Shown: one piece after another, positions 12,862-32,199 of the stretch
How positions within the stretch are numbered: the first letter of the stretch is position 1
How the letters are laid out: every line of letters begins with the position of its first letter
Source: Cyanobium sp. Morenito 9A2
Lineage (GTDB): Bacteria > Cyanobacteriota > Cyanobacteriia > PCC-6307 > Cyanobiaceae
DNA: 64,000 nucleotides
Assembly: GCF_024345575.1 (NCBI RefSeq)
Contig: NZ_JAGQBJ010000002.1
Span: forward strand, 124,001-188,000
Direction: 5' to 3'
Position numbers and translations under genes: made by a program
The notes under the pieces: generated by a model
The model's database searches: none
What the model was told of the DNA's origin: nothing
Seen by the model: only the letters and a program-made list of their open reading frames with translations

Positions 12862-13102
12862 GGGAACCTCCTGGGGGGAGACTTCTCTGGTCTATCGCAA
12901 GGAACCGGAACCGCCAAGCCCCGCTTGGTGTGGGTTGCCACTGAACGGGTGATTCATCCCCACGTGCTCCCGAGCCCGTGGGGGAACACCCAGGATGTTC
13001 AGCCCTGGCGCCCTCGGTTGGCCCAAGCCCGGAGTGAAGCCCATGGGGAGATCCCCGAGCGATGGGACTGGCCCCTTGAATGGCGTTCTGCCACCGCTTG
13101 CC

Positions 13103-14923
13103 ATGGTTCCCCATTCGGCCCCCGCCCCCACAGCACGCTCGTCCAGGCCAGCACTGTCGCGCTTGCTGCTGACCCTTCGCCCCCATCGGCAGCGGGTGGC
13201 CCTGGCGGCGGCCTGTTCGGTGCTCAACAAGCTGTTCGACCTGGCGCCACCGGTGCTGATCGGCCTGGCGGTGGATGTGGTGGTCAAGCAGCAGCAGTCC
13301 TGGCTGGCCCAATTCGGTGTGGCCAGTGTGCCCGGACAGTTGACGGTGCTGGCGGTGCTCTCGTTCGTGATCTGGAGCGCGGAATCGCTGTTTGAGTACC
13401 TCTACGGGGTGCTCTGGCGCAACCTGGCCCAGACCGTGCAGCACGAACTGCGCCTCGAGGCCTACGACCATCTCCAGCAACTGGAGATGGCCTTTTTCGA
13501 GGCGGGCAGCAGCGGTCGTTTGATGGCCATCCTCAATGACGACATCAATCAGCTGGAGCGCTTTCTCGACCACGGAGCCAACGAAATCCTGCAGCTGATC
13601 ACCACGGTGTTGGCGGTGGGCGGCGCCATGGTGGTGCTCTCCCCGGGGGTGGCTGGTGTGGCCTTCCTGCCGATCCCGGTGATTCTCTGGGGATCGCTGG
13701 TGTTTCAAAAACGTCTGGCCCCCCGCTACGAAGAGGTGCGCGAACGGGCGGGCGATCTCTCCAGCCGGTTGGCCAACAATCTCGGTGGCATGCTCACCAT
13801 CAAGAGCTTCGCCGCCGAGGCCTGGGAACAGGAACGGCTCCGCTCGGACAGCGAGGCCTACCGGCTCAGCAACCGCCGGGCGATTCGTCTCTCGGCAGCC
13901 TTCATTCCCCTGATCCGTTTCGCGATCCTGTTCGCTTTTCTGGCGATTTTGGTCATCGGCGGCCTGCAGGCCTGGCGCGGGGTGATCGCCGTCGGTAGCT
14001 ACAGCTTTTTGGTGTTCATCACCCAACGGCTGCTGTGGCCGCTCACCACCCTGGGCCGCACCCTTGATGACTACCAACGAGCGATGGCCTCCACCAACCG
14101 GGTGCTGGATCTGCTCGAAACACCGATCGCCATCCCCAGCGGGCGCCGGGGTCTGGAGACCCCTGCAGTGGCCGGGCGTCTGGAGTTTCAGGGGGTCCGT
14201 TTCGCCTACCAGGGCCGGGACCCTCTGCTTGAGGGCTTTGATCTGCTGGTGCCGGCAGGCACCACCTTGGGAATCGTCGGCTCCACGGGCTCGGGCAAAA
14301 GCACAATCGTCAAATTGCTGCTGCGGCTCTACGCGATCGATCGGGGCCAGATCCTGCTCGACGGGATCCCCATCGTTGAACTGAAGCTGGCCGACCTGCG
14401 CCGCGCCATCGGCCTGGTGAGCCAGGAGGTGTTCCTGTTCCACGGCACCGTGGCCGAGAACATCGCCTACGGCAGCTTCGGGGCCAGCCGCGCGGCGATC
14501 GAGCGGGCGGCGGAGTTAGCCGAAGCCTCGGCCTTCATCGCCGCCCTGCCCGAGGGCCTCGACACGGTGGTGGGGGAGCGTGGTCAGCGCCTCTCCGGCG
14601 GCCAGCGCCAGCGCATCGCCCTGGCCCGGGCGATTCTCAAAAACCCACCTGTCCTGATTCTCGATGAGGCCACCGCCGCCGTCGACAACGAGACCGAGGC
14701 GGCAATCCAGCGCTCCCTTGAGCTGATCACAGCCGAGCGCACCACCTTGGTGATCGCCCACCGGTTGAGCACCGTGCGCCACGCCGACCGGATCGTGGTG
14801 ATGGAGCAGGGCCGCATCGTCGAAAGCGGCCACCACGACGACCTGCTGGCCCTAGGTGGGGCCTACACCAACCTCTGGCGGGTGCAGGCGGGCCTCCGCC
14901 AGGACGAAGCCCTCCAGCTTTGA
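13103..14923 (+). CDS. ABC transporter, fused permease and ATPase (MsbA/lipid-export type)
   Basis: 606 residues from the ATG at 13103; the frame stays open 36 codons further upstream to an ATG at 12995, so the start is uncertain. An N-terminal type-1 exporter membrane domain of six helices (about residues 20-320) is followed by an ATPase domain with Walker [10 protein letters not shown] near 392, signature LSGGQRQ near 496, Walker [12 protein letters not shown], and a switch His (VIAHRLS). The half-transporter would act as a homodimer. Substrate is unknown; lipid or drug export is the usual guess for this architecture. No neighbouring gene narrows it. Confidence 0.9.
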
Positions 14924-15030: not shown

Positions 15031-15954
15031 ATGAAAAGTTCTGCCTTGAAAAAGCGCGGCGGCTTGAATCCGGTGCTGCTGGCCTCTGTCCTGGGGCTCA
15101 CTGGCGGTTTGGTGCTGGCGGGCCCCCTCTCAGGCTGGATCAAGGGTGATCTGCTCGATAAGAACCACTCCCTCGGCAATCCTTTTGCTGCCTGGGCCGG
15201 CCTGGGGGACCAGGAATTGGTGGTGCTCGGCACCGATGTGGGCGGTGGCAACACCGATGTGATGTACGTGGTGAAGGTGCAGAACGGAGTCACGAGCCTC
15301 ACCCAGGTCCCCCGGGACACCTACATCGATTCCAACGGTTTCGGGCCGCTCAAGGCCAATGCCCTCTACAGCCTCGGGGGCACCGAGGCGGTGAAGCACG
15401 AGCTTTCCCGTCAGCTGGGCCGGCCGATCGAGCACCACATGGTGGTCAATCTCTCGGCGATTCGCCGTCTTGGCGATCAGCTGGGGGGCCTGGAGGTGAA
15501 CGTGCCCAAGCGCATGTACTACGTCGACAACAGCCAGGGGCTCTACATCGACCTCCAGCCCGGTCTGCAGACCCTCAAGGGCCGGGATCTCGAGGGCTTC
15601 ATCCGCTACCGCCACGACGAACTCGGAGACATCGGCCGCCTCGAACGGCAGAAGCTGCTGCTCAGCGCTCTCTTCGCCAAGCTCACCCGTCCTGAGAATT
15701 TGCTCCGGCTTCCCAGCCTGATCGCCTCGGCCGGCAAGGACCTCAACACCGATCTGGGGCCGATGGAGATCGGTGGATTGGTCACCGCCATGGCCACCAC
15801 CCAGTTCCACACCAAGCGCCTGGGGGGCCGTCCGTTTGATCGCAACGGCATCAGCTACTGGGAAGCGGAATGGCCCAAAGCCGAGGCACCCGTTGAAGCC
15901 GCCCATGGCGGTTCCAGTGGCGAGGGCTCGAACCGCTTCAAGTTTCTGTTCTGA
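15031..15954 (+). CDS. LytR-CpsA-Psr (LCP) family glycopolymer transferase
   Basis: 307 residues. One N-terminal transmembrane helix (about 10-32) anchors an extracytoplasmic LCP domain. Family landmarks are the Asp-containing LGTDVGGGNTD start of the domain, VPRDTYID, and the arginine-rich FIRYRHDELGDIGR motif that binds the polyprenyl-pyrophosphate head group. LCP enzymes transfer glycopolymers from undecaprenyl carriers to the cell wall. An uppS gene for that carrier lies elsewhere in the window. The gene stands alone. Confidence 0.88.
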   Translation: MKSSALKKRGGLNPVLLASVLGLTGGLVLAGPLSGWIKGDLLDKNHSLGNPFAAWAGLGDQELVVLGTDVGGGNTDVMYVVKVQNGVTSLTQVPRDTYIDSNGFGPLKANALYSLGGTEAVKHELSRQLGRPIEHHMVVNLSAIRRLGDQLGGLEVNVPKRMYYVDNSQGLYIDLQPGLQTLKGRDLEGFIRYRHDELGDIGRLERQKLLLSALFAKLTRPENLLRLPSLIASAGKDLNTDLGPMEIGGLVTAMATTQFHTKRLGGRPFDRNGISYWEAEWPKAEAPVEAAHGGSSGEGSNRFKFLF

Positions 15955-15996: not shown

Positions 15997-16239
15997 CTAA
16001 TCAACCTTGGGCGGAGTTCCGTAGCTCGCCGGCACCAGCACCAGGAACAGCAGCCACCAGAGCAGTACCACCAGACCCAATGGGGCGGTGATCCACCAAC
16101 GTTGCAGCAGCAACCAACTAGCGGATGGCACCAGCACTCCTGTGAGCAGGATGCTCCAGGGCTGGCACCACCAGGGCTTGAGGTGCCAGAAGGAGGCCTC
16201 CTTCCCTGCTGGTGCTGCCGTGGTCGGTTCAGCGCTCAT
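15997..16239 (-). CDS. DUF6737-type small membrane protein
   Basis: 80 residues from the ATG at 16239; the open frame extends upstream but the conserved part starts here. Features are FWHLKPWWCQPWSI, then two hydrophobic helices (about 30-50 and 53-75). This Trp-rich signature recurs in cyanobacterial proteins of unknown function that I recall as DUF6737. It is divergent from the FUSC gene that follows. Confidence 0.75.
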   Translation of the reverse strand: MSAEPTTAAPAGKEASFWHLKPWWCQPWSILLTGVLVPSASWLLLQRWWITAPLGLVVLLWWLLFLVLVPASYGTPPKVD

Positions 16240-16330
16240 CGCTCGGGGCTCACTGCGGCCATTCTCCTTGATGTCGATGGGATCAGGGCCTTCAGCAGGT
16301 CCAGCCCGGTTCGCCGTGGAAGCAACCGCA

Positions 16331-17413
16331 GTGACGCCGAGGGCGGTGGTGAGCCAGATCGAGGCGGAGCTCTGGGAGGGTCCCGGCACCTGCGGGCTAC
16401 CGGCACGGTTGCTGGGGTGGCGGAGCCATGGTTCCGGAGCTGATGGCCTGGACCAGCCGGGCGCCATAGCCTTGGGCCTGTCTGGGCCAAGGTGGCGGGC
16501 ATTGCAATCTCAGCTGGTACGCAACAGCCTCCGGCTGGGGCTGAGTGTGTTGTTCACGGCCTCGATCGCCCTGTGGTGCCAGCGGATCGAGTTCGTCTGG
16601 TATCCCCTGTTGGCAGTGATCTTCGTCGTTGATGACAACGATGAACTCACCCTCAGGGCCGCCCGCTCGCGCCTCTTCGGAACAGTGGCGGGGGGGCTGG
16701 TGGCCTTTCTGGTGCACACCATCTGCCAGGGCTGGCCGGCTGTGTTGCTGAGCCTGGTGATCACCGTGCCGCTGCTGCGGCTGCTGGGTTGGCAGGGGGG
16801 GCTCTCCACGGCGGCCACGATCACCCTGCTGTTTCTGCTCGTGCCCCGGTACAGCGCCTTGAACTGGGACTACGTGTTCAACCGCAGCCTCGACACCAGC
16901 GTCGGCATCGTGCTGGCGATCGGCGTCAGCCTGTTGTTCTGGCCCCGCGACCGCCTCGCCCGGATCGAGGGCCTCGACCGCGACCTCCATGGGGCCCTGG
17001 AGGAGCGGCTGAGGCTCTGGCGGCACTGGCGCCAGGGCAGCGGCCCCCGGCCGCCCCAGGTGAACCCCCGCGGGGCGACCGGCAGCCTCCTGGAACTGGA
17101 GCGGTTGGTGGGCATTGAGCGCAGCGGCCACGCCCGCCAGGCGATTCTTCGCGAGCGCTGGAGCCAGCGGCTGTTGCTGTGGAGCACCATCCACCACCAC
17201 TGGTTCCAGCTGGAGCGACTGCTGGAACGCCAGCCGGAGGCGCCCGCGCAGGCCAGTCCACTGCTGCGCCTGGCCCTGGAGGAGGAGCAGAAACGGCTGG
17301 ACCTGGCCTTGCGCGCCCAGAGGCGCTGCGAGCGCCATCCCCGCACCGATCGGGACCTCGGCCGGGCGAGGGATCGGGTTCCCCCCCCCCAGGAAAGCCC
17401 GGTGGCCGGATGA
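16331..17413 (+). CDS. FUSC-family membrane protein (aromatic acid exporter-like), first of two
   Basis: About 360 residues. The N-terminal half has FUSC helices (residues about 60-200: ASIALWCQRIEFVWYPLLAVIFVV, LFGTVAGGLVAFLV, GIVLAIGVSLLFWP), followed by a cytoplasmic Arg/Leu-rich helical region. The fold resembles half of AaeB/YccS-type proteins. The start is unclear: GTG codons at 16331 and 16349 and TTG at 16472 are all possible, and the frame is open back to 16088, where it would overlap the antisense gene. The stop overlaps the next FUSC gene's ATG (ATGA). Confidence 0.8.
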   Translation: MTPRAVVSQIEAELWEGPGTCGLPARLLGWRSHGSGADGLDQPGAIALGLSGPRWRALQSQLVRNSLRLGLSVLFTASIALWCQRIEFVWYPLLAVIFVVDDNDELTLRAARSRLFGTVAGGLVAFLVHTICQGWPAVLLSLVITVPLLRLLGWQGGLSTAATITLLFLLVPRYSALNWDYVFNRSLDTSVGIVLAIGVSLLFWPRDRLARIEGLDRDLHGALEERLRLWRHWRQGSGPRPPQVNPRGATGSLLELERLVGIERSGHARQAILRERWSQRLLLWSTIHHHWFQLERLLERQPEAPAQASPLLRLALEEEQKRLDLALRAQRRCERHPRTDRDLGRARDRVPPPQESPVAG

Positions 17414-18498
17414 CCCTGTTCAGGCGCGAGGAACTGCGGTTGGCCGTGGTGTGCGGTCTGTGCGCTGGGCTCGCTGCGCTCGCGCCGATCCCGGACGGGT
17501 ACTACATGCCCATGGCGGTGGTGGCGGTGATGGCCGGAAGCTATGGAGGCTCCTATCGGCTGGGCCTACAGCGGCTGCAGGGAACCCTGCTCGGGGCGGC
17601 GATCCTGCTGGTGTGCCAGGCCGGGTTGACGGTGCCCCTGCCGCTGGCGCTGGCCCTTGCCCTCCTGCTCACCCGTCTGCTGGGGGGACTTCTGGGGCTG
17701 GAGGTCGGCTACAAGGTGGCCGGATTCGTGGTGGTCATGGGCTGGTTGGTGCATGACACCAACCTCAGCAGCTGGTTGCCCCTGCGGCTCTTCTGGACCT
17801 GCCTGGGGATCCTGATCGGTCTGCTGGCGCTGCAGTTGTTCTGGCCCAGCCGGGCGATCGCCATCCGCCACCGGGCCTGCGGCCGCCTGCTCGTCCAGGT
17901 CGCCGCTGAGCTGCGGCAGCAGGCCGGACGTCTCGATGACGCCGACCCGCCCCTGGAGGCGCCCATGCTCACCCCCCAGGAACGGCGCGCCGCGCACCGT
18001 CGCGACCTGACGGCGCTGATGGAGCTGCGCCGCACCCTGGGGGAGGCGGTCACGGAGCTCGGGCCGAACCCGGAAGCTCAGGCGCTTCTTCCCTTCTGGC
18101 GGCAGCTCGATGGCTGCCTGTCGCTGTTGCTGGGCTCCCTCGACAGCCTGCGCAACCTGCGCCCGCCCTTGCGGGCGCTGCCGATCCTCGATCGGGTGCA
18201 TCGGGCCGAGTCCGAGCTGTTGCGGGCCGTGGCCGATCGCCTCAGTCTCTGGGTCGAGGTGTTGCCCCACGTCCGGAAACTCGACCGGGTGGTGGACGCC
18301 ACGGGTGCGGCGCTGGCCTCACCGCTAGCTCCCCAGTTGGAGCGCCTGCGGGCGGAGGAGGCGGACCTGTTCAGCAGGCCAATCCCCGAGCTGGGCGCCA
18401 CCCGGGAGCGCCAGATCGCTGAACGGCTGATGCTCTGCCATCAGGCGGCGGGCGCTGTGGAGCGGATGGAGCAGCGGTGGCGGGAGCTGGATCCGTGA
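17410..18498 (+). CDS. FUSC-family membrane protein, second of two
   Basis: 362 residues with N-terminal FUSC helices (LAVVCGLCAGLAAL, GYYMPMAVVAVMAGSYGG, GTLLGAAILLVC, LFWTCLGILIGLLALQLFWPS) and a helical cytoplasmic tail. It is the same architecture as the gene before it but diverged. The ATGA overlap upstream and the GTGA overlap with the TolC-type gene downstream make a three-gene unit, so the two probably form a heteromeric inner-membrane pump feeding that channel (inference). Confidence 0.85.
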   Translation: MTLFRREELRLAVVCGLCAGLAALAPIPDGYYMPMAVVAVMAGSYGGSYRLGLQRLQGTLLGAAILLVCQAGLTVPLPLALALALLLTRLLGGLLGLEVGYKVAGFVVVMGWLVHDTNLSSWLPLRLFWTCLGILIGLLALQLFWPSRAIAIRHRACGRLLVQVAAELRQQAGRLDDADPPLEAPMLTPQERRAAHRRDLTALMELRRTLGEAVTELGPNPEAQALLPFWRQLDGCLSLLLGSLDSLRNLRPPLRALPILDRVHRAESELLRAVADRLSLWVEVLPHVRKLDRVVDATGAALASPLAPQLERLRAEEADLFSRPIPELGATRERQIAERLMLCHQAAGAVERMEQRWRELDP

Positions 18499-20252
18499 GT
18501 CCGGGCCGAGCCCGTTGGGGGCTGATCGTTTCCCTGCTGGTGCCGTCGCCCGGGCTGGCCGCGCTGGCTCCCCTGGGGGCTGGGATCGCCCCAGCTCCGT
18601 CGGCCGGCACGACGCCTGGCGCCGCTTTCGCCCCAACTCGGCTTCTGGCCCAGGCAACCTCCATTCAGCCGCCGGCGCGGGGAACCGGAGCTGGAAGCCC
18701 CCAGGCCAGCACAGCTGTGCTGGAGCGCTCCTGGCAACGGCTGGATCGGGAGTTGCAGCTGCTCGATGGGGTGCTCAGCGACGACCGGCAGGATCCGCCC
18801 CTGGCCCTCCCCACCGCCCAGGGGCTGGAACCCTCCCCCCCCCAGGACATCAGCCTGGAGCAGGCCCTGGCGATTGGTTTCGCCCAGAGCCCTGAACTGC
18901 AGATCCAGAGGCTGGAGGTGGCGGCGGCCCTGGCCCTGCTGCAGGCGCGCCTCGGCGCCTACTGGCCCCAGCTGGCCCTGGTGGGCGGCCTCGACCTGGA
19001 CCAGAGTGCCACCAACTATGCCGTTCCCCGGGGCAATGAGAGCCTTGGTTTCGGCCCCAACTTCGCTGCCGGCGGGGCCTTCGCCGTGCCCAGCGGTGCG
19101 CGGGCCTACCTGAACCAGGGCACGGGCTCGGCCGGCGGCGGACTGGAGCTGCGCTATGCCTTGCTCGATTTCGCCCGCGCCCCGGCGGTGGAAGCGGCCC
19201 GATTCAGCCTGCGCCAGGCCCGCCAGACCTACGCCAATGGTCTGCGCCTGCTGCAACTTTCGATCACCGAGGCCTACTACCAACTGCAGCGCAACGACGA
19301 GTTGGTGCGCATCCGTGAAGCGGACCTGCGCAGCGATGCGGTCGTGCTGCAGGACGTGCTCGCCCTCAAGCAAGCGGGGCTGGTGCCCCGGCTCGATCTG
19401 CTGCGCCGCCGGGCGATCGAAGCCGAAGCGGAGGAGCGCCTGGTGCAGGCCCGGGCTGACCGCGCCATCGCCCGGCGACGCCTGGCGGTGCTGCTCAACC
19501 TGCCGCTAGATCGGGTGCCCCGGGCCAGCGATGCGATTCAGTTGCAGCCCGCCTGGCCGCTGGATCTGGAGGCGAGCCTGCTGGCGGCCTACCGCGACAA
19601 CCCTGAGCTGGAGGCGCTGCTGGCGGCCCGCGAGGCCCTGGGGAGGCAAAAGGATGGGCTGGCCGCAGCCCTGTTGCCCAGGCTGAGCCTGGTCGCCGGA
19701 GGGGGCGCTCTGGGCACACGAACGAGCCAGTGGAACGCCAGTGGCAACTGCTGCGGCTCCACGGTGATCCCGCTGCTGAACACCGACGGCGCCCAATGGG
19801 GGGTGGGCCTCACCTTCCGCTGGCTGTTGTTCGATGGCGGCAGCAGCGCGGCGGAGGTGCGCGCCCTGGCCAGCCGGGAGGCGGCGAGTGCCCAGCGCTA
19901 CGTCGCCAGCCGGAACGACATCCGCCTGCGGCTGGAGTCGGCGTTCTTCAACCACAGGGCCAGCCTGGAGAAAGTGGTCTCGGCAAGGCGCGCCGTGGCC
20001 GCCAGCCTGGAGGCCTTTCGCGATGCCCGCCTGCGCTACCAGAGCGGCCTCTCCAACGAGGTGACCCTCTCGCTCACCCAGGACCGCCTGATTGACAGCC
20101 TCGTCCGGCGACTCAACGCCACCATCGACGTCAACCTCACCTATGCCCAACTGCTGCGGGAGCTGCTGCCAGTGCCACGGGATCCGGCCGCGCCGCTCCT
20201 TCCTCACCTTCAGTGGCCGCTACCGCCGGAGAGGAACCGCTCAACCCGGTAG
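18495..20252 (+). CDS. TolC-type outer-membrane efflux protein
   Basis: 585 residues from the GTG that overlaps the FUSC stop. A signal peptide is followed by a Pro/Ala-rich stretch, then two OEP repeats. Typical elements are ISLEQALAIGFAQSPELQ opening repeat 1, long amphipathic helices, and the second repeat with FRWLLFDGG and QSGLSNEVTLSLTQDRL near the C-terminus. As a trimer it would form the outer-membrane exit duct for the FUSC pair and possibly other pumps in the window. Its last 43 bases overlap the convergent small gene. Confidence 0.9.
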   Translation: MSPGRARWGLIVSLLVPSPGLAALAPLGAGIAPAPSAGTTPGAAFAPTRLLAQATSIQPPARGTGAGSPQASTAVLERSWQRLDRELQLLDGVLSDDRQDPPLALPTAQGLEPSPPQDISLEQALAIGFAQSPELQIQRLEVAAALALLQARLGAYWPQLALVGGLDLDQSATNYAVPRGNESLGFGPNFAAGGAFAVPSGARAYLNQGTGSAGGGLELRYALLDFARAPAVEAARFSLRQARQTYANGLRLLQLSITEAYYQLQRNDELVRIREADLRSDAVVLQDVLALKQAGLVPRLDLLRRRAIEAEAEERLVQARADRAIARRRLAVLLNLPLDRVPRASDAIQLQPAWPLDLEASLLAAYRDNPELEALLAAREALGRQKDGLAAALLPRLSLVAGGGALGTRTSQWNASGNCCGSTVIPLLNTDGAQWGVGLTFRWLLFDGGSSAAEVRALASREAASAQRYVASRNDIRLRLESAFFNHRASLEKVVSARRAVAASLEAFRDARLRYQSGLSNEVTLSLTQDRLIDSLVRRLNATIDVNLTYAQLLRELLPVPRDPAAPLLPHLQWPLPPERNRSTR

Positions 20253-20398
20253 GCCAGCACCACCAGAAGCACCACCAGCCAGAACCACAGCTCCGGAGCG
20301 TTGGCGTTCGCCAGGACCACCAGCAGCACCACCTCGGCCACCAACCAAGGAAGCTCCTGGCGCAGCAAAGGGTTGGGCCGCCAGGAGAACGGTTTCAC
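20210..20398 (-). CDS. Small membrane protein after the HlyD gene
   Basis: 62 residues from a GTG overlapping the HlyD stop (GTGA). There are two hydrophobic segments (WLVAEVVLLVVLANA and LWFWLVVLLVVLAYRV) with a positively charged end. It is too short for a known transporter domain. The coupling to the adaptor gene suggests a small accessory subunit. Its 3' end overlaps the TolC-type gene on the other strand. Confidence 0.65.
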   Translation of the reverse strand: MKPFSWRPNPLLRQELPWLVAEVVLLVVLANANAPELWFWLVVLLVVLAYRVERFLSGGSGH

Positions 20399-21696
20399 CA
20401 ACGGGCTGCTCCCCCCTGACGCAGGTCGCCAGCGGCCTGGCGGTCGATGCGGCCACTGCGGAAGCCGCCGGTGAGGGTGCGCAACCCCGGCAGCACGTAG
20501 GAGAGCGGCGTGCGCCACTCCACGTAGGCGTGGCTTTCCACCGTGAGCCCCTCGCGCACGGGGAACACGCGGCTTCCCTCCGAAAGGGTCCAACGGAAGC
20601 CATCAACGCTTCCGGGGTCGCGGCGAAGTTCGATTTCGGTGCGCATCACCGGGCCGGAGGCCACCAGGGCCTTGGCCAGCTGGGGGTTGCCGATGGTGGT
20701 GGAGATGTCGTCCTCGGTGGCGGGCAGCAGATTCACGCGCACCACCCTGCCGACGATGCCACCGAAGCGTCCACGCTGGTCCCACTGGGGCACCACCTCG
20801 ACGGCCATCCCAGGTTTGAGCCTCCGGGCATCCGCCGGGGCGTAATAGGACACGGCGCGCAGGGGGCCGGCCTGGGTGGGGCGGCCGATGGTGCCGAGCC
20901 GCTGGCCCAGGTGCACGGTTTGGCCCGGAATCACCTGCAGGTCCAGGACTTGCCCGTCCCGGTCGGCCAGCAGCTGGCCGTCAAAGGCCCGACGAGCCTC
21001 GGTGACGCGCAGTTGTCTTGCCAGGTCGTCGATGCGGTAACGGCGCTGCAGGGCCTCGGTTTCGATCTGGAGCTTCACCTGTTGGTAGGCGCTCAGCAGG
21101 CGCTTCTCCTCGATGCGCACCTGATCGAGGCTGACGCTGGTGTTGGTGAGCCCCTGCTCCACTCCGACCACCTCCGCTGAGAGGGGCGCCACCACCTCCC
21201 GGGCCGCCAGCCAATCGAGCTGTTTGAGCTTGCTGAGGTAGGTGCCCTGGAGGGTTCCGAAGCGGGTGCGGTCGTTGGCAAGCTTGGCCAAGGCCGTGGC
21301 CACCGCCTGCTTTTCGGCCCTGAGCCTGAGCCGATCGCGGCCACCCAGGGCCTCGTTCTGACGCACCAACTGACGCAGGTTGGCGCGCTGTTGCTCCAGC
21401 TGACGATCGAGCACGGGCAGGTAGAGCTCGACCAGCACCTGGCCGCGGCGCACCGCATCGCCGCTGGCCACATGCACCCGGCGCACCTGGCCAGGGGCGC
21501 GGGCATCCAGCAGACCCGCGTTGTCGGGTTGGAGCAGCACCCCCTGGCCCACCACCTCCGTGGGCACCAGCCAGAAGGCTCCCCAGAGACCGACGGCACC
21601 TGCCATCGCCGCCAGGCACCAGCCCACCTGGCGGCGGCCCCCGCCCTTGGCCTGCGGCGGATCGGACGGAACGGTGGCCTGCATGGGCGCCAGCAT
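20395..21696 (-). CDS. HlyD-family membrane fusion (adaptor) protein
   Basis: 433 residues. One N-terminal transmembrane helix (about 25-45), a biotinyl-lipoyl-like half (DARAPGQVRRVHVASGDAV, RRGQVLVEL), a coiled-coil of about 150 residues, the second lipoyl half (GQVLDLQVIPGQTVHLGQ), then a beta-barrel domain (RRLKPGMAVEVVP). The N-terminal layout is like adaptors of NHLP-type peptide export systems, but no peptidase-ABC transporter or leader peptide gene is nearby. It more likely bridges the FUSC pump and TolC channel encoded just downstream on the other strand (inference). Confidence 0.85.
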   Translation of the reverse strand: MLAPMQATVPSDPPQAKGGGRRQVGWCLAAMAGAVGLWGAFWLVPTEVVGQGVLLQPDNAGLLDARAPGQVRRVHVASGDAVRRGQVLVELYLPVLDRQLEQQRANLRQLVRQNEALGGRDRLRLRAEKQAVATALAKLANDRTRFGTLQGTYLSKLKQLDWLAAREVVAPLSAEVVGVEQGLTNTSVSLDQVRIEEKRLLSAYQQVKLQIETEALQRRYRIDDLARQLRVTEARRAFDGQLLADRDGQVLDLQVIPGQTVHLGQRLGTIGRPTQAGPLRAVSYYAPADARRLKPGMAVEVVPQWDQRGRFGGIVGRVVRVNLLPATEDDISTTIGNPQLAKALVASGPVMRTEIELRRDPGSVDGFRWTLSEGSRVFPVREGLTVESHAYVEWRTPLSYVLPGLRTLTGGFRSGRIDRQAAGDLRQGGAARW

Positions 21697-21783: not shown

Positions 21784-22833
21784 TCAGGGGGACGCCGTGA
21801 CCGCGGCCAGGGAGGAGAGGGCCCCGGCATCGCCGCCGAGGGCTGCGGCGAGCAACGGAGCCAGGGGTGGCACCAGGGCGAAGGGGCCGCTGAAGCCGCT
21901 GAACACCCACAGCCCGGGGCTGCCGGCAACGGGCCCCACCAACGGCCGCCCACAGGTGGTGAACGTGACCGGCGCCTGCAGGAAACGGGCCGGCTGGGCC
22001 GCCAGCTCGGGCCAGAGCCTATTCAGCTCCTCGCGGAGGGCGGCCTCCAGCGGAGCCTTTGCCGGTGGCTCCCCCACCCCGGCGCCCGGTCGCACCAGGG
22101 TGGTCTGACCCAGCAGGAGCCCCGCGCCGCGGGGGGCCAGGCCCCCATCCACCACCCACTGCTCGGAGCTGAGGGCGAGGGCCTGGGCTTCCAGGGCCTG
22201 GCGCCGGCCCTCCAGGGGCATCACGATCGCGCCGTCAGGTTCGTTGCAGGGGAAACCGTGCCACGGGAGCCTTGTTGCGGGTGGCAGCTCTTCGATGTGC
22301 AACACCCCGGCCCAGCTCACCAGCAATCTGCCGGCCAGGGCAGGCCAGAGCGCCAGGTTGCCCGCTCCTGCCGCCAGCGCGATCTGATCGGCGCTCAGGG
22401 ACGGGGCGTCGACCCTCCCCACGGTCCAGCCCCCACTCCGCCTGGGCAGCAGGCCCGTGGCGGCGCCGCTGATCCGCCTCACACCCGCCCGCTCCAGGGC
22501 CGCCGGCAGGGCGGTGGCGAAGCGCTCGCCATCGAGCCGGGCGTAGGGGTGACGCTCCAGGCGGCCGCCGGGGCCATGGAGCAGCAGCGCGCAGGACCGC
22601 CAGCCCAGGGGCCCGTGGCGCCGCTCCAGGGCCTGCCAACAGTCCGGGGCGGTGGCCATCAGCGCCCCGACCGGCCCCGGGGGACCGGCCCACCAGGGCA
22701 CGCCGCCGTAGCTCAGCTCCGTCGCCGAGGGGCCCTGGCCACTCAGCAGCTCCACAGTGGAGCCGCGCTCCGCCAGGGCCAGGGCCAGCAGGCCGCCGGC
22801 CAGCCCGCCACCGATCACAAGCACCTCAGCCAA
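21784..22833 (-). CDS. FAD-dependent oxidoreductase (DadA/glycine oxidase-like)
   Basis: 349 residues. The N-terminus has the dinucleotide-binding GxGxxG (VLVIGGGLAGGLLALALAE, residues 4-22) and the C-terminus has the FAD-contact segment (GRPLVGPVAGSPGLWVFSGF). The fold is that of amine/amino-acid oxidases such as glycine oxidase; the substrate cannot be read from sequence. It starts three bases after the psbP stop, so the two are co-transcribed. Confidence 0.85.
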   Translation of the reverse strand: MAEVLVIGGGLAGGLLALALAERGSTVELLSGQGPSATELSYGGVPWWAGPPGPVGALMATAPDCWQALERRHGPLGWRSCALLLHGPGGRLERHPYARLDGERFATALPAALERAGVRRISGAATGLLPRRSGGWTVGRVDAPSLSADQIALAAGAGNLALWPALAGRLLVSWAGVLHIEELPPATRLPWHGFPCNEPDGAIVMPLEGRRQALEAQALALSSEQWVVDGGLAPRGAGLLLGQTTLVRPGAGVGEPPAKAPLEAALREELNRLWPELAAQPARFLQAPVTFTTCGRPLVGPVAGSPGLWVFSGFSGPFALVPPLAPLLAAALGGDAGALSSLAAVTASP

Positions 22834-22836
22834 GAC

Positions 22837-23415
22837 TCAGCTGGTGAGGTTGAACGAGCCGATCACCTGCTCGAACAGGCCCTGAACCTTGCCCCAGCGC
22901 AGGTCGTTGGTGCTGGCCGAAAGCGTGTAGAGACGGCCCCGGTCGGCCACCACCGTGGCCAGCTCATGGCGCTGGCGATCGCTCAGCTGCACCGTGTACT
23001 CCAGGTCGTAGAAGGTGCGGCCCTCCTGCTGCCGTTCGCGGGCGGCCACCAGCTCCGCGCTGCGGTCGCCGCCCGCAGGGGCGATCGCCGTGCTGAGAAG
23101 GCGCTCCCCCACCGCCTGGGCGCCCGCCTCCTCTGCGGCCTCATTGGCGGGGGTCACCGGGGCCACCATCAGGCTCAGGGTCTCGTCGGTGTGGATCAGG
23201 TCGTGGAACACCACCTGGGGGCCGCCGCTCACCTGCACCCGGGTCCAACCGGTGGGATACAGGAACGCATAGCGGCCATCGGGGCTGCGGTAGGCATTCA
23301 GACCCGCCGCCGAGGCGCTGCACCCCACCACAACCAGGGCCAGCATCAGAGGCAGCAGCCAACCCGTGAGCCGGGCCCGAAGCTTGCCGGGCAGGTGATG
23401 ACGGAAAGGGTCCAT
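22837..23415 (-). CDS. psbP: PsbP-like photosystem II lipoprotein
   Basis: 192 residues from the ATG at 23415. The signal peptide ends in a lipobox (VVVGCSAS, Cys about residue 31), so the protein is predicted to be lipid-anchored on the lumenal side, as cyanobacterial PsbP is. The PsbP domain follows (YRSPDGRYAFLYPTGW, then VVFHDLIH, ETLSLMVAPV and a C-terminal VIGSFNLTS). It stabilises the oxygen-evolving complex. The frame extends upstream, but that extension overlaps the divergent gene and lacks homology. Confidence 0.92.
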   Translation of the reverse strand: MDPFRHHLPGKLRARLTGWLLPLMLALVVVGCSASAAGLNAYRSPDGRYAFLYPTGWTRVQVSGGPQVVFHDLIHTDETLSLMVAPVTPANEAAEEAGAQAVGERLLSTAIAPAGGDRSAELVAARERQQEGRTFYDLEYTVQLSDRQRHELATVVADRGRLYTLSASTNDLRWGKVQGLFEQVIGSFNLTS

Positions 23416-23521
23416 GGCGATCCGGGGCGGCAGGGCTTTCGCCATTCTCCAGCCCGGGTGCGATGGGTGAGCGCAGGGCCCGGCCGCCCAGCATGGGGTT
23501 TCCGTCAACGCAGCGCCACCG

Positions 23522-24274
23522 ATGACCGCCAGCCCAGTCACCCCAGGCCCTCGCCCCCAGCGGCGCAGGAGCTGGGCCCAGATCCAGCGCGAACAGCAGC
23601 AGCGATGGTTTTACCGTCTGCTGGATCGCTCGTTCGGTTTCCGTCTGCTGGTGGCCCTCGGGTCAGCGATCCTGCTGCTCGGCGCCGTCAATCGCTGGGA
23701 GCAGTGCCGGGATCACGGCGTCAGCGCGGCCTGCGTCCTGCGCGATGCCGGCGGCATCATCAGCGTCAGCAACATCGAATCGCTGAGCATTGTCACCGCG
23801 GCTTTCCTTTATGTGCTGGAGGGCAGCAAGCGGCGTCAGCGTGAGAACCAGGAGGCCATGGAGGTGATCCTCACTTTCCAGCAGGCCGGCGCCAAGCTCA
23901 GCTATGCCCGCAACAGTGCCCTGGAGCGGCTCAGCGAGAGCGGCCTCTGGCTGGATGGTCTCGACCTGAGCCGCACCCACCTGGATGAGCTTCAGGCGGC
24001 CGGCGGCCGCTGGCGGGAGGTGAACCTGAGCCGCGCCAGCCTGCGCCATGCCTGCTTTGAGGATGCCGATCTGCGCGGGGCCGATCTCAGCGAGGCCGAC
24101 CTCAGCGACGCCAACCTGCGCCATGCCGACCTGCGGGGAGCGAGCCTCCGCGGCGCAGACCTGAGCGACGCGGACCTGCGGGGTGCCGATCTCACGGGAG
24201 CCAGCACCGAAGGAGCTCGGCTCAGCGGCACCCGGCTCGAAGGGGCGGCCCTCGGGGACCGCGCTCTGGGCTGA
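23522..24274 (+). CDS. Membrane protein with pentapeptide repeats
   Basis: 250 residues. A basic N-terminus precedes two hydrophobic segments (about 38-55 and 80-100). After a helical linker, at least 14 pentapeptide repeats of the A(D/N)Lxx type run from about residue 165 to 240 ([18 protein letters not shown] and so on), which fold as a right-handed quadrilateral beta-helix. Several Synechococcus ion-channel-like proteins share this layout. Function is unknown. The stop is about 30 bases before the recR start. Confidence 0.8.
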
Positions 24275-27220: not shown

Positions 27221-29002
27221 ATGGTGCAGCAGGGGGAGGTTCGCAGGGGCATCGGCACTGGAACTGGCACGGGAACTGCCACCGGAGCCGGCACGGCAGC
27301 TGAAACCTTGATCGCCCTGCTTCCGGGCCTGAACCGATGGAAGGTCTATCGGCCCGAGTGGTTGCGGGGCGATCTGCTGGCCGGCCTCACCGTGGCGGCC
27401 TACCTGATCCCCCAGTGCATGGCCTACGCGGAGCTGGCAGGTGTGGCGCCGGTGGCAGGGCTGTGGGCGATCCTGCCGCCGATGCTGCTCTATGCCCTGA
27501 TCGGCTCCTCGCCCCAGCTCTCGGTGGGCCCGGAGTCGACCACGGCGGTGATGACGGCGGCGGCGATCGGCCCGATGGCCGCTGGAGATGCGGGCCTCTA
27601 CGCCAGCCTCGCCAGCCTGCTGGCCCTGGTGGTGGGCCTGATCTGTTTTCTGGGGGCCTGGGGCCGACTGGGGTTCCTCGCCGACCTGCTGTCCAAGCCC
27701 ATCCTGGTGGGCTACATGGCCGGGGTGGCGGTGATCATGATTGCCGGCCAGATCGGCAAGATCAGCGGCCTGTCGATGGAGGCCGACGGGCTGTTGAGTC
27801 AGGTGCTGGAACTGGTGCGTCGTCACGATGAGATCCACGGGCCCACCGTGCTGCTGGCCATCGGGGTGCTGGTGTTCCTGCTGCTGATCCAGCGCCGCTA
27901 TCCCCAGGCCCCCGGTCCGCTGCTGGCGGTGCTGCTGGCGGTGGCCGCCGTCTCCCTGCTGGATCTCGATCAGCGGGGCGTCGCCGTGATCGGAGCGATC
28001 CCCGCCGGGTTGCCGAGTTTCGCTCTGCCGGCCGCCGTGTCCCCGCTGCAGCTGAAGTACCTGGGGGCGACCGCCGTGGGCATCGCGCTGGTGGGCTACT
28101 CCGACAACGTGCTCACCGCCAGGGCTTTTGCGGCCCGGGGCGGCTACCGCATCGACGCCAACCAGGAGCTGCTGGCCCTGGGGGCGGTGAACGTGGGCAA
28201 CGGACTGATGCAGGGGTTCCCGGTCAGCAGCAGCGGCAGCCGCACCGCCATCGGTGATTCCCTCGGCAGCCGCTCCCAGTTGTTCTCGCTGGTGGCCTTC
28301 GCGGTGGTGCTGGTGGTGCTGCTGTTCCTGCGGCCGGTGCTGGCGTTGTTCCCCAAGGCGGCCCTCGGCGCGATCGTGATCTATGCCGCCCTGCGCTTGA
28401 TCGACATCCCGGAGTTCCAGCGGATGCGGCGCTTCAAGCTGAGCGAGTTCCGCCTGGCACTGGTCACCTGCGCCGGGGTGTTGCTCACGGACATCCTGGT
28501 GGGTGTGGCCCTGGCGGTGGCGCTGTCGGTGGTGGATCTCTTCGCCCGCCTCGTGCGGCCCCATGACGCGGTCCTGGGCAACGTGCCCAACCTGGCGGGG
28601 CTCCACGACGTGGGTGATTGGGAAGGCGCCACCACCATCCCAGGGCTGCTGCTCTACCGCTACGACGCACCCCTCTGCTTCGCCAATGCCGAGGATTTCC
28701 ACCGCCGCGTCCTTGGGGCCATCGCCGCCGAGCAGCATCCGGTGCGCTGGATCGTGCTGAATGCCGAGGCGATCGTGGAGATCGACATCACCGCCGTGGA
28801 CATGCTGCTTGAACTCCAGGTCGAACTGACCGGCATGGGGATCGTCATGGCCATGGCCCGGGTCAAGCAGGGGCTCTATCAGCAGCTCTCAAGGGCTGGG
28901 GTGGCGGAGCGGATCGGAACGGATCGCTTCTACGCCACCCAATCAACGGCGATCGTCGCCTTTCAGGCCATGGGCACCGTCGCCACAGGCGGTACGCCGT
29001 GA
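27221..29002 (+). CDS. SulP-family anion transporter with STAS domain
   Basis: 593 residues. A Gly/Thr-rich N-terminal stretch (alternating GT) precedes the SulP core (GDLLAGLTVAAYLIPQCMAYAELAGV is the sulfate-transporter signature, about 47-72; SVGPESTTAVMT follows), with 12-14 helices, then a cytoplasmic STAS domain from about residue 470 (ITAVDMLLELQVEL). SulP carriers move sulfate, bicarbonate or other anions with Na+ or H+. The core looks unlike BicA, so I leave the substrate open. The stop overlaps the start of the RND gene. Confidence 0.88.
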   Translation: MVQQGEVRRGIGTGTGTGTATGAGTAAETLIALLPGLNRWKVYRPEWLRGDLLAGLTVAAYLIPQCMAYAELAGVAPVAGLWAILPPMLLYALIGSSPQLSVGPESTTAVMTAAAIGPMAAGDAGLYASLASLLALVVGLICFLGAWGRLGFLADLLSKPILVGYMAGVAVIMIAGQIGKISGLSMEADGLLSQVLELVRRHDEIHGPTVLLAIGVLVFLLLIQRRYPQAPGPLLAVLLAVAAVSLLDLDQRGVAVIGAIPAGLPSFALPAAVSPLQLKYLGATAVGIALVGYSDNVLTARAFAARGGYRIDANQELLALGAVNVGNGLMQGFPVSSSGSRTAIGDSLGSRSQLFSLVAFAVVLVVLLFLRPVLALFPKAALGAIVIYAALRLIDIPEFQRMRRFKLSEFRLALVTCAGVLLTDILVGVALAVALSVVDLFARLVRPHDAVLGNVPNLAGLHDVGDWEGATTIPGLLLYRYDAPLCFANAEDFHRRVLGAIAAEQHPVRWIVLNAEAIVEIDITAVDMLLELQVELTGMGIVMAMARVKQGLYQQLSRAGVAERIGTDRFYATQSTAIVAFQAMGTVATGGTP

Positions 29003-32000
29003 GCCTCTCGGATCGCTTCATTCGGGGCCCCGTCCTGACCACGGTGTGCTCCCTGGTGATCCTGCTCCTGGGTGCGATCTCCATTCCCCTGTTGCCGCTG
29101 GAGAAACTGCCCCAGCTCGCCCCCACCCAGATCAATGTTTCAGCGGTGAACATCGGTGCCGACGCCCGCACCACCGTGGACACCGTGACGAATCCACTGG
29201 AGGAGGAGATCAACGGGGTCGAGAACATGAAATTCATGTACTCCAACACCTCCTCCGATGGGATCGCCAACATCACGGTCGCCTTTCCGGTGGCGGTTGA
29301 TCGGAACATTGCCCAGGTGAATGTCCAGAACCGGGTCAGTCAGGCCACACCGGGCCTCCCCGATGCGGTCAAGCAGACCGGTGTGACGGTGGAGGCGGCC
29401 TCCCCGAGCCTGTTGTTGGCCTTCGGCTTCTATGCCGACACCGATGCCCAGGGCAAGCCCCTCTACGACCCGCTCTTCATGAGCAACTTCATCGACCAGA
29501 ACCTGATCAATGAGGTGCGCCGGATCCCTGGTATCGGCAACACCGTGATCATCGGCGAGCGAACATTCGCCCTGCGCATCTGGCTGGATCCCCAGAAACT
29601 CGCTGCCTACGGCCTCACGCCCCTCGATGTGGAGCGGGCCCTCAAGGAACAGAACATCCAGTCAGGTGCGGGCCGCATCGGCCAGGAGCCGATGGTTCCG
29701 GGTCAGCAGGTCGCCATTCCCCTCAAGGCGGAGAGCCGTTTCCGCAACGTCGCCGACGCCGAAAACCTGGTTCTCAAGGTCGGTGAATCCGGCCAGACCA
29801 CCAAAATCAGTGATGTCGGCCGTGTCGAACTCGGCGCTGAGAACTACGACCTGATCGCCAGCCTCGGGGGGCGGCCCTCGGCGGGCCTGGCCCTCTATCA
29901 GCTGCCCGGCGCCAACGCCCTCGACACCGGCAACCGGGCGAAGGCGCTGGTGGAGAAGCTGGCGGCTGAATTCCCGCCTGGTCTGCACTACGAGATCCCC
30001 TACGACTCCACCCTGTTCGTGACCACGTCGCTGAAGGATGTGACCTCGAACCTCCTCCAGGCGATCGTGATGGCGGTGCTCACGATCCTGCTTTTCCTGC
30101 AGGACTGGCGCTCCACGATCGTGCCGGCCCTGGCGATGCCGGTGGCGATGATCGGTGCCATGTCCGTGGTGCTGGGGTTCCACTTCAGCCTCAATCAGCT
30201 CACGATGTTCGGCATCATCCTGGCGATCGGCACCGTCACCGACGACGCTGTGGTGATCGTGCAGGCCGTCAAGGACAAGCTCGGCCAGGGGATGCGGCCG
30301 ATGCAGGCGGCCCTTGATTCGATGAACGAGCTGGCCACGCCCACCATCACGGCGGCCCTTGTGCAGCTGGCGGTGTTCATTCCTGTGTCGTTCTTCCCCG
30401 GCACCACCGGCATCGTCTACCGCCAGTTCGCCATCACCCTGGCGGCCGCGATCGTGTTCTCCACCTTCAATGCTCTCACGTTCTCCCCCACGATTGCGGC
30501 CTTGTTCCTCAAGCCGGAGGGGGCCCCACCGGGGGCCATAGACCGGGCGATCAACGTTCTGCTCGGCTGGATTTTCCGCCCCTTCAACAGGGGCTTCGCC
30601 GCGCTGTTCGCCTGGTACGGGCGAACGATCGAGTGGCTGGTGAGCTATCGCTACGCGGTGATGGCGGTGTTCGTGGCCGGGCTGCTGGCCACGGTGATGA
30701 TGCTGAAGATCGTCCCCACCGGCTTCATCCCTGAGGAAGACCAGGGCCTGATGATCCTGCTGGGTGAGGCCCCTCCGAGCGCCTCGCTGGGGTACACCCA
30801 GAAGCAGGTGGAGCAGGTGAATGGAATTCTTGCGGACTTCAAGCCTGAGGTTGAGAGCTATCTGGGAGCGGCGGGATTCGGCCTGGAGGGCAACAGCTAC
30901 AACAAATACCTGTTTTTCATCCGTCTCAGCGCCTGGGATCAAAGGCCCAACGCCGATCAATCGGTGTTCAGCATCCTGGCTCGGCTGAACCAGCGGTTGC
31001 GCAAGGAGGTGAACGGGTCGTTGGCGTTTGCCACCAATGTGCCCCCGGTCGATGGCGTCGGAGCGACCGGGGGCCTGGAGTTCCAGCTGCAGAACCGCGG
31101 TGGCTTGCCCACCGCAGCCCTGCTCAAGAACCTCAACACCATGATCGAGGCAGCTCAGAAGCGCCCCGAACTGGATCGGGTCACCACCACCTTCACCCCT
31201 GGCGTGGAGCAGTTGTCGATCCAGGTCGATCGCAACATGGCCAAAACCCTCGACATCGACATCAGCGAGGTCTTCGGCACCCTGCAGGCCTACATGGGTG
31301 GCCGCTATGTGAATGATTTCATCTTTGACAAGGACCAATACCGGGTCTATGTGCAAGCAGATAGTCCGTTCCGCACCGACCCCAGCGTTCTCTCGTCCTT
31401 CTTTGTTCGCTCCCGCAAGGGTGATCTGGTCCAGTTCAAGGATCTGGTGACCACGGAGCGTTTCTTCGCCCCCCCCACGATCACCCGCTACAACGTCTAC
31501 GAGTCGATCAAGATTCAGGCCACACCCGCGCCTGGCTACAGCTCCGGCCAGGGGATCGCTGCCATGGAAGCGGTGGCCGCCGAGGTGCTCGACCCGGGCT
31601 TCGGGTACGAGTGGACCGGTCTTTCCCTTGAGGAACGCTCAGCGGGAGGCGCCACTGGCGCTATTTTCGCGCTGGCGACCGTGCTGGTGTTTCTTGTGAT
31701 GGCGGCCCAGTACGGCAGTTACATCGATCCGCTGATCATCCTGCTCACCGTCCCCCTGGCCGCACTCGGAGCCATGTCGGCGATCTGGTTCCGTGCCAAC
31801 GCCCTGCAGGCGGGTAGCTTCTGGCCGGTGATCAGCAACGACATCTTCACCCAGGTGGGGTTGCTGATGTTGATCGGAATGGCCAGCAAGAATGCCATCT
31901 TGATCGTCGAGCAGGCCAACGAATACCTGCGCCTTGGCATGTCCATCAGCCAGGCAGGGATCTCCGCCGCCAAGGCCCGTTTCCAACCGATCGTGATGAC

Positions 32001-32199
32001 CGCCGCCTCAGGTCTGGTGGGCTACATCCCGCTGATGACCGCCTCCGGCGCCGGTGCGATCAGCCGCTGGTCGATCGGCACCGTGAGCTTCGGCGGCTAT
32101 CTGGTGGCCACCGTGCTCAGCCTGGGGGTGGCACCGGTGTTGTTCATCGTGATCAAGGGGCTGGAGCGCACCTATCTGCTCAAAACCGCTGAGCCGTGA
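28999..32199 (+). CDS. RND-family efflux pump (HAE1/AcrB type)
   Basis: 1066 residues from a GTG overlapping the SulP stop. A full-length inner-membrane RND pump: TM1 near the N-terminus, a large periplasmic porter domain (NVQNRVSQATPGLP), the proton-relay Asp pair in TM4 (GTVTDDAVVIV, about 415-416), a second periplasmic loop, and C-terminal helices with GMASKNAILIVE. It would need an adaptor and an outer-membrane channel; neither is adjacent, but HlyD- and TolC-type genes lie 8-9 kb upstream. Substrate is unknown. Confidence 0.92.
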   Translation: MSLSDRFIRGPVLTTVCSLVILLLGAISIPLLPLEKLPQLAPTQINVSAVNIGADARTTVDTVTNPLEEEINGVENMKFMYSNTSSDGIANITVAFPVAVDRNIAQVNVQNRVSQATPGLPDAVKQTGVTVEAASPSLLLAFGFYADTDAQGKPLYDPLFMSNFIDQNLINEVRRIPGIGNTVIIGERTFALRIWLDPQKLAAYGLTPLDVERALKEQNIQSGAGRIGQEPMVPGQQVAIPLKAESRFRNVADAENLVLKVGESGQTTKISDVGRVELGAENYDLIASLGGRPSAGLALYQLPGANALDTGNRAKALVEKLAAEFPPGLHYEIPYDSTLFVTTSLKDVTSNLLQAIVMAVLTILLFLQDWRSTIVPALAMPVAMIGAMSVVLGFHFSLNQLTMFGIILAIGTVTDDAVVIVQAVKDKLGQGMRPMQAALDSMNELATPTITAALVQLAVFIPVSFFPGTTGIVYRQFAITLAAAIVFSTFNALTFSPTIAALFLKPEGAPPGAIDRAINVLLGWIFRPFNRGFAALFAWYGRTIEWLVSYRYAVMAVFVAGLLATVMMLKIVPTGFIPEEDQGLMILLGEAPPSASLGYTQKQVEQVNGILADFKPEVESYLGAAGFGLEGNSYNKYLFFIRLSAWDQRPNADQSVFSILARLNQRLRKEVNGSLAFATNVPPVDGVGATGGLEFQLQNRGGLPTAALLKNLNTMIEAAQKRPELDRVTTTFTPGVEQLSIQVDRNMAKTLDIDISEVFGTLQAYMGGRYVNDFIFDKDQYRVYVQADSPFRTDPSVLSSFFVRSRKGDLVQFKDLVTTERFFAPPTITRYNVYESIKIQATPAPGYSSGQGIAAMEAVAAEVLDPGFGYEWTGLSLEERSAGGATGAIFALATVLVFLVMAAQYGSYIDPLIILLTVPLAALGAMSAIWFRANALQAGSFWPVISNDIFTQVGLLMLIGMASKNAILIVEQANEYLRLGMSISQAGISAAKARFQPIVMTAASGLVGYIPLMTASGAGAISRWSIGTVSFGGYLVATVLSLGVAPVLFIVIKGLERTYLLKTAEP

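Follow-up and report, generated by a model that had tools for sequence, protein, structure and literature searches.

The efflux of p-hydroxybenzoate in E. coli is the work of AaeXAB, a system in which a FUSC inner-membrane protein, an HlyD adaptor, and a small membrane protein are encoded together. In Burkholderia, genes in the order bucl8-fusC-fusD-fusE encode what the authors of PMC7682875 propose to be a tetrapartite pump for fusaric acid. The window considered here, 64,000 nucleotides from Cyanobium sp. Morenito 9A2 (positions 124,001 to 188,000 of contig NZ_JAGQBJ010000002.1, from a genome of 3.1 Mb that is 99.8% complete), contains five genes encoding two FUSC proteins, a TolC-type channel, an HlyD adaptor, and a membrane protein of 62 residues. 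The five probably make up a single exporter, driven by FUSC and spanning the envelope, that belongs with AaeXAB and FusCDE. As an exporter it is a variant of the known FUSC/HlyD pump, and what is unusual about it is that the FUSC component is a constant pair of chains and that the place of AaeX is taken by a small protein belonging to an unnamed family. No published description of the five-gene system was recognized in a literature search limited to open-licence papers.

The genes lie in two sets that face each other (Table 1). Within each set neighbors overlap by start and stop codon, and the convergent sets themselves share 43 bases at the 3' ends of the TolC and small genes. The original prediction described the overlaps within the sets and the convergence of the two, and the coordinates of the open reading frames (ORFs) agree with it. 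Overlaps of the ATGA or GTGA type are common among coupled genes. Both FUSC proteins pass the cut-off of 25.6 bits for Pfam FUSC_2 (PF13515), FUSC1 with 39.6 bits and FUSC2 with 47.6, and FUSC1 also exceeds the cut-off for ArAE_1 (31.6 bits). The TolC-type protein matches OEP in two stretches (167.9 bits), and the adaptor matches HlyD_3 (28.9 bits). The exact start of FUSC1 is uncertain and may lie further in, as the first 55-65 codons or so of the called ORF show no similarity to other FUSC proteins. The upstream extent of the start is limited by a DUF6737 gene at 15997-16239 on the minus strand (72.8 bits), divergent from FUSC1.

Table 1. Positions of the five genes and of the genes that flank them, numbered from the first nucleotide of the window.
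Feature	Position	Strand	Description
FUSC1	16331-17413	+	GTG start; 360 codons as called; half-size FUSC_2/ArAE inner-membrane subunit
FUSC2	17410-18498	+	362 codons; ATGA overlap with FUSC1; half-size FUSC_2 inner-membrane subunit
TolC/OEP	18495-20252	+	585 codons; GTGA overlap with FUSC2; TolC-type outer-membrane channel
Small membrane protein	20210-20398	-	GTG start; 62 codons; candidate fourth subunit
HlyD	20395-21696	-	433 codons; GTGA overlap with small gene; HlyD-family periplasmic adaptor
LytR-CpsA-Psr gene	15031-15954		Flanks cluster on FUSC1 side
FAD oxidoreductase and PsbP genes	21784-23541		Flank cluster on HlyD side

The components are present or absent together. A hand-compiled survey of 251 genomes of the family, using thresholds for strong matches that we set at the drop in E-values, found HlyD in 85 genomes, the small protein in 87, FUSC2 in 84, and all three in 81. 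Only four of the 85 HlyD genomes are without a strong FUSC2 (G064, G122, G117, and G235; genomes and loci that need to be told apart are given our G and L numbers). In the first two, a weaker FUSC pair adjoins HlyD (L070 and L069), in G117 the contig stops 0.4 kb beyond HlyD, and G235 is the HlyD genome that has no strong match to the small protein. Conversely, without a strong HlyD the small protein is found in G090, G214, and G250, and FUSC2 in G090, G132, and G214.

Gene order was examined in 61 loci, comprising the window and 5-20 kb around HlyD from 60 of the 84 other HlyD genomes, all scanned with profiles that were grown from the window proteins and iterated on those same loci. In all 61 the small gene is the next gene after HlyD, and at least one FUSC gene converges on the HlyD-small pair in 59, the misses being L073, which meets a contig end, and L116. 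A TolC gene is found in 58 (not in L073, L124, or L125). The order is variable. With F standing for FUSC, T for TolC, and HlyD written on the minus strand, 22 loci show the arrangement of the window, F F T small HlyD, while F F T F F small HlyD accounts for 15, F F small HlyD T for 13, T F F small HlyD for 5, and the remaining layouts for 6. HlyD, the small gene, and FUSC are nonetheless found together, in whatever order, in 59 of the 61 loci, a co-location far beyond chance. A second sample, gathered by HlyD alone, comprises 80 named loci. In 79 of them the small gene comes directly after HlyD (L245 ends with its contig), and 62 show one FUSC gene or more. The named records with the closest loci come mostly from Cyanobium, Synechococcus, and Vulcanococcus. 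One record carrying the picocyanobacterial cluster (L202) is a metagenome-assembled genome titled Bifidobacterium breve, probably mislabelled or a mixed bin.

The genomes that lack the pump are also informative. On either side of the cluster stand the LytR and PsbP ORFs, for each of which 50 of the other fetched loci have a match in a BLAST comparison (only its long rows of high identity were used, since many antisense ORFs score in it too). In the genome of the window a distance of 6.9 kb lies between the two. Both flanks were found in six of seven pump-less genomes (G071 has no LytR match), where they are separated by 1.8 kb (G001), 1.2 kb (G046), 1.1 kb (G087), 1.4 kb (G061), 0.1 kb (G050), and 0.3 kb (G045). 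In G001, which is of the same genus, the flanks are 86 and 92% identical to those of the window. With the flanks no more than 0.1-1.8 kb apart in all six genomes that hold both, it follows that the two convergent sets are missing together. Gaps of less than 1 kb imply, so far as size can tell, that the FAD oxidoreductase gene is missing too, hence that there was no single clean excision. The original prediction took the two sets to be one system with a dedicated channel, and the survey supports one system that includes a channel: a FUSC gene converges on HlyD-small in nearly every sampled locus, TolC accompanies them in nearly as many, and frequent separation of HlyD from FUSC was not found for this type of HlyD, the two being jointly absent where the pump is lacking.

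HlyD and the small protein also occur in other company. A paralogous HlyD, 52-57% identical, has its own small gene and its own convergent TolC gene (L127-L136; for example, L127:9111-10699), and the HlyD-small pair may be considered the tightest unit, since this paralogous set has no FUSC gene nearby in any of the 10 loci fetched. Judged by eye, the FUSC-linked small gene is present as well in 35 of the 36 genomes that have the paralogue's; the exception is G235, which has the FUSC-linked HlyD. Six neighbors at paralogue loci were scanned, and no common pump was found among them: five from L127, L130, and L132 proved to be MutS2 (two), a GMC oxidoreductase (one), and proteins of no family (two), and one from L133 is an EamA transporter. 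A third group of HlyD proteins within the family, with an identity of ~30-42% along part of the chain, is encoded in operons of the order HlyD-small-FUSC in 12 of 12 loci (L173-L182, L190, and L191), with a divergent TolC gene in 11 (L190 is cut). In all, related small genes follow three groups of HlyD. A sample of the phylum (386 genomes, the family itself included) yielded eight genomes outside the family with a match to the small protein, and five of the six loci fetched from these carry HlyD, the small gene, and a full-length FUSC gene in that order (L184-L188, from families f21, f15, and f22). A wider alignment of small proteins added just one weak match, in G390, and the weak match in G011 (L189) is accompanied by none of the five genes.

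The two FUSC genes are not interchangeable copies. Among 167 FUSC sequences placed in one tree (some from loci of the same genome, and with the root left open), the 78 first genes of pairs and the 78 second genes do not mix, FUSC1 of the window falling with the first genes; the F1 group has a support of 0.83 and the F2 group one of 0.22. The constancy of the pairing across loci argues for a hetero-oligomer of F1 and F2. Profile comparison relates the two to each other with 99.2% probability, and both match the N-terminal half of full-length cyanobacterial FUSC proteins (FUSC1 97.4%, FUSC2 96.8%). With the N-terminal half of AaeB, FUSC1 matches at 92.4% probability and FUSC2 at only 13.7%. Matches to C-terminal halves are weak, the best being that of FUSC2 to the cyanobacterial C-terminal half (49.2%). 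The idea that FUSC1 and FUSC2 represent the N- and C-terminal halves of an AaeB cut in two is thus unsupported, as both resemble the N-terminal half. Of the split efflux system originally proposed, the layout is supported (two FUSC proteins, an adaptor, a channel, and a small protein, arranged like a split AaeXAB), but 'split' should not be read as AaeB divided into halves.

FUSC2 is predicted to fold like the anion channels of plants known as ALMT proteins. An AlphaFold2 model built with 43 relatives has a pLDDT of 91.9, and all eight Foldseek matches to it below an E-value of 0.001 are plant ALMT chains. VIA-align superimposes it on AtALMT1 with a Z of 22.1 and a root-mean-square deviation of 6.0 over 348 residues, and the model (made for FUSC2 only) matches ALMT1, ALMT9, and ALMT12 over its whole length. 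By sequence, FUSC2 found no match in the PDB at E-values up to 1. A fold of this sort invites the view that the FUSC pair is itself an ALMT-like anion channel or regulator, serving osmotic or pH balance, with HlyD and TolC to widen the outlet. Besides the whole-chain match, the cytosolic bundle of FUSC2 (residues ~145-362) matches PhoU-like proteins with Z of 13-16, which for helical bundles may reflect a common arrangement and nothing else, and channel-like proteins, a weak indication, are encoded in the clusters of some relatives (L082:8888-9847 and L090:12925-13689). An ion-balance channel, however, would need neither an adaptor nor an outer-membrane tube, and HlyD-bearing relatives are listed or have been tested as exporters of acids, AaeAB for p-hydroxybenzoate (as given in PMC8277102) and the Burkholderia system for fusaric acid (as given in PMC7682875). 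We consider a role in ion balance quite unlikely. Of the two channel-like proteins, that of L090 has a weak match to Ion_trans_2, below the cut-off, and that of L082 has no match.

The small gene is very likely real, because the differences between it and 72 relatives of equal core length are concentrated at the third codon position (821, 347, and 1354 at positions 1, 2, and 3). The protein has a core of the form E-x-P-W-L...N-A-N-A/P-P-E-L-W-F-W...Y-R-x-E-R and is predicted by AlphaFold2 to be a helical hairpin (helices at residues 10-31 and 34-58, pLDDT 75.3). An alignment of 21 such proteins, searched against whole genomes, gives E-values of ~1e-28 to 1e-34 at sites following HlyD. The protein exceeds the cut-off of no family in Pfam or NCBIfam. 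At one locus outside the family (L185:2464-3792, genome G567), the small gene is followed, before FUSC, by another, partial copy of itself. A relationship to DUF1656, the family of AaeX, was considered and finds no support: DUF1656 (PF07869) does not appear in the Pfam results for the small protein at E-values up to 1, and the small-protein profile does not match the single AaeX sequence that stood for DUF1656. DUF1656 was found in none of 77 cyanobacterial genomes, the E. coli control being positive. That absence and the lack of a profile match to AaeX make the family a candidate for a functional counterpart of AaeX with a separate origin, though in proteins so short a common origin may be undetectable. 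The small protein accompanies HlyD even at loci that lack FUSC, which suggests an action on the adaptor.

The adaptor carries a label that would point elsewhere. It scores 187.4 bits against NCBIfam TIGR03794 ('NHLP secretion'; cut-off 156.2), the only place in the genome to exceed the cut-off, and an ABC transporter gene of the exporter type lies near the locus at 12995-14923. The adaptor and TolC might on these grounds belong to an NHLP peptide exporter driven by an ABC transporter, the FUSC pair being a mere neighbor. TIGR03794, however, was passed by four of five adaptors tested. Along with the window protein, these were FUSC-linked adaptors of other cyanobacterial families (213 and 205 bits, L184 and L187) and the FUSC-less paralogue L127 (171 bits); L173, of the third HlyD group, falls below the cut-off at 108 bits. 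The partner model, TIGR03796, for the NHLM peptidase/ABC transporter, is exceeded in two of 61 genomes, G045 and G071. The small protein finds no match in either of them, and in both, the HlyD directly upstream of the TIGR03796 gene is just 28-29% identical to the window HlyD over part of its length. In the genome of the window, the best score for TIGR03796 is 459.9 bits, far from its cut-off of 853.3 (TIGR03797 was not searched). In the cyanobacterial bacteriocin clusters described in PMC3140520, HlyD is paired with ABC transporters bearing a C39 peptidase. Since TIGR03794 calls FUSC-linked adaptors as well, FUSC genes converge on the HlyD of the window type in 59 of 61 loci, and TIGR03796 is not exceeded here, the NHLP label looks like an over-call. 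NHLP peptide export was set aside as the principal explanation for these reasons. The adaptor, whose NHLP-like features were remarked on in the original prediction, is probably no part of an NHLP exporter, a role for the locus that we hold to be highly improbable. Matches of the adaptor to PDB sequences are weak, and the NCBIfam model for AaeA gave no match to it at E-values up to 1.

Several observations weigh against a single FUSC-driven exporter. At L116, the FUSC pair is ~31 kb from HlyD (L140), and L124 and L125 have no visible TolC gene. FUSC is not in view in 18 of the 80 named loci, most of which are on short contigs, are of the paralogue type (L274-L278), or may have FUSC beyond the flank. 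Among the 18, however, FUSC is wanting in L205 in spite of a flank of ~9 kb, and in L269, which extends 3.7 kb past TolC. In L252, the expected site of the FUSC pair holds only a stretch of 93 residues resembling FUSC2 (16150-16428, 86% identity); with HlyD-small and TolC next to it, this is what is left of a FUSC gene that has decayed or been broken. At L183, a locus from outside the family, the small gene and FUSC occur with no detectable HlyD. The paralogue loci have no FUSC within 6-9 kb flanks in 10 of 10 fetched, from a total of ~35. In the tree the F2 group is poorly supported, the likeness to ALMT is structural (11-14% identity), and ALMT proteins are channels. Finally, no regulator or biosynthetic gene was recognized by Pfam among the neighbors scanned. 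Because of L205, L252, and L269, our confidence was lowered, by very little, and one exporter remains the probable explanation.

Some of the same facts could be read to mean that two independent systems happen to face each other, the FUSC pair with a TolC of its own and the HlyD-small pair serving several pumps. The paralogous HlyD-small-TolC loci without FUSC fit this, as do L205 and L269, the FUSC pairs that certain genomes carry apart from HlyD (L138, L139, L141, and L142), and the occurrence of TolC on either side of HlyD across loci. The joint presence and absence of the components in the 251 genomes counts against it, however, as do the closeness of the flanks where the set is missing and the existence elsewhere of codirectional HlyD-small-FUSC operons. 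Two independent systems seem to us unlikely.

If the five genes encode one exporter, as we infer, it might, by analogy with AaeXAB and Bucl8-FusCDE, work as follows. FUSC1 and FUSC2 would form a hetero-oligomer of ALMT-like fold in the inner membrane, each subunit contributing helices in the membrane and a helical bundle in the cytosol. The pair would pass a small organic anion outward from the cytoplasm to a conduit formed by adaptor and channel, driven by the inside-negative membrane potential, the proton gradient, or both. The proton gradient is what drives AaeAB, and ALMT proteins function as dimers. The HlyD adaptor would sit on the FUSC pair and join it to the TolC-type channel, so that substrate crosses both membranes. 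The 62-residue hairpin would be a fourth subunit, in the inner membrane beside the adaptor, which it may stabilize or dock, in the place of AaeX or FusD. As to the substrate, an organic acid, possibly aromatic, is only a guess from the family. A bolder proposal, which we make tentatively and rate as somewhat less than probable, is that the PELWFW hairpin is an obligate fourth subunit of one entire branch of HlyD adaptors in cyanobacteria, that it acts on the adaptor and not on the pump and came to occupy the same place as DUF1656 by independent evolution, and that it works with a constant, heteromeric, ALMT-like FUSC1/FUSC2 pseudo-dimer under the TolC tube.

The clusters of some relatives contain additional genes. 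An OprB-type porin is encoded between FUSC2 and TolC in some (L079:7235-8686, Pfam OprB 60.9 bits), and L090:9425-10996 was judged OprB-like by eye only. Between TolC and the small gene, some have a GAF-GGDEF (diguanylate cyclase) gene (L079:12056-13147). Four inserted genes were scanned for a clue to the substrate, and no biosynthetic enzyme was found among them. Elsewhere in the window, a separate pump gene of the AcrB type, of the resistance-nodulation-division class, is at 28999-32199, with a sulfate permease gene before it (27221-29002).

The small proteins of FUSC pumps, AaeX and FusD, are still called 'DUF' proteins. The picocyanobacterial protein offers a second, independent handle on the place they occupy, and because that place is held here by an apparently unrelated small protein, the place itself may be what matters. 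The constant FUSC pair, with its predicted ALMT-like fold, would link a bacterial pump to the anion channels of plants, and the pairing could be tested by co-purification. There is also a practical point, in that the label 'NHLP bacteriocin secretion protein' may be falling on the adaptors of cyanobacterial FUSC pumps and on their paralogues.

How does the locus compare with the systems already described? AaeXAB proper was not found: FUSC1 scores 16.2 bits against the full-length FUSC family PF04632, short of the cut-off of 30.9, FUSC2 gives no match to it, and the AaeA and DUF1656 models are likewise unmatched. What was found is an AaeXAB-like layout, linked and jointly inherited. AaeB is one chain of 655 residues, whereas the picocyanobacterial set has two FUSC chains of ~360, and AaeX is a DUF1656 protein, whereas the picocyanobacterial small protein is not. 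E. coli has a divergent regulatory gene, aaeR, and no TolC gene within the 8 kb viewed; here, TolC is linked and no regulator was seen, and the genes form two convergent sets, unlike aaeX-aaeA-aaeB. With Bucl8-FusC-FusD-FusE, the locus shares the same four kinds of part, including a linked outer-membrane channel, but the Burkholderia system is described as having a single FusC of 733 residues, a DUF protein of 67 residues (FusD), a collagen-like region in its channel, and a regulator, fusR (PMC7682875).

NHLP bacteriocin export shares an adaptor that scores over the TIGR03794 cut-off, but here FUSC genes adjoin the adaptor and nothing in the genome exceeds the cut-off for TIGR03796. The plant proteins ALMT1, ALMT9, and ALMT12 share with FUSC2 a predicted whole-chain fold (Z up to 22.1, at 11-14% identity); to our knowledge, ALMTs have no adaptor and no outer-membrane channel. 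An HlyD and a small protein related to those of the window are encoded in the cyanobacterial operons of the order HlyD-small-FUSC (L184-L188 and L173-L182). These differ in having one FUSC chain on the same strand, in frames of ~720-810 or ~370-550 codons. Their TolC gene is divergent in L187 and L173-L182, and none was seen in the sequence fetched for L184-L186 and L188.

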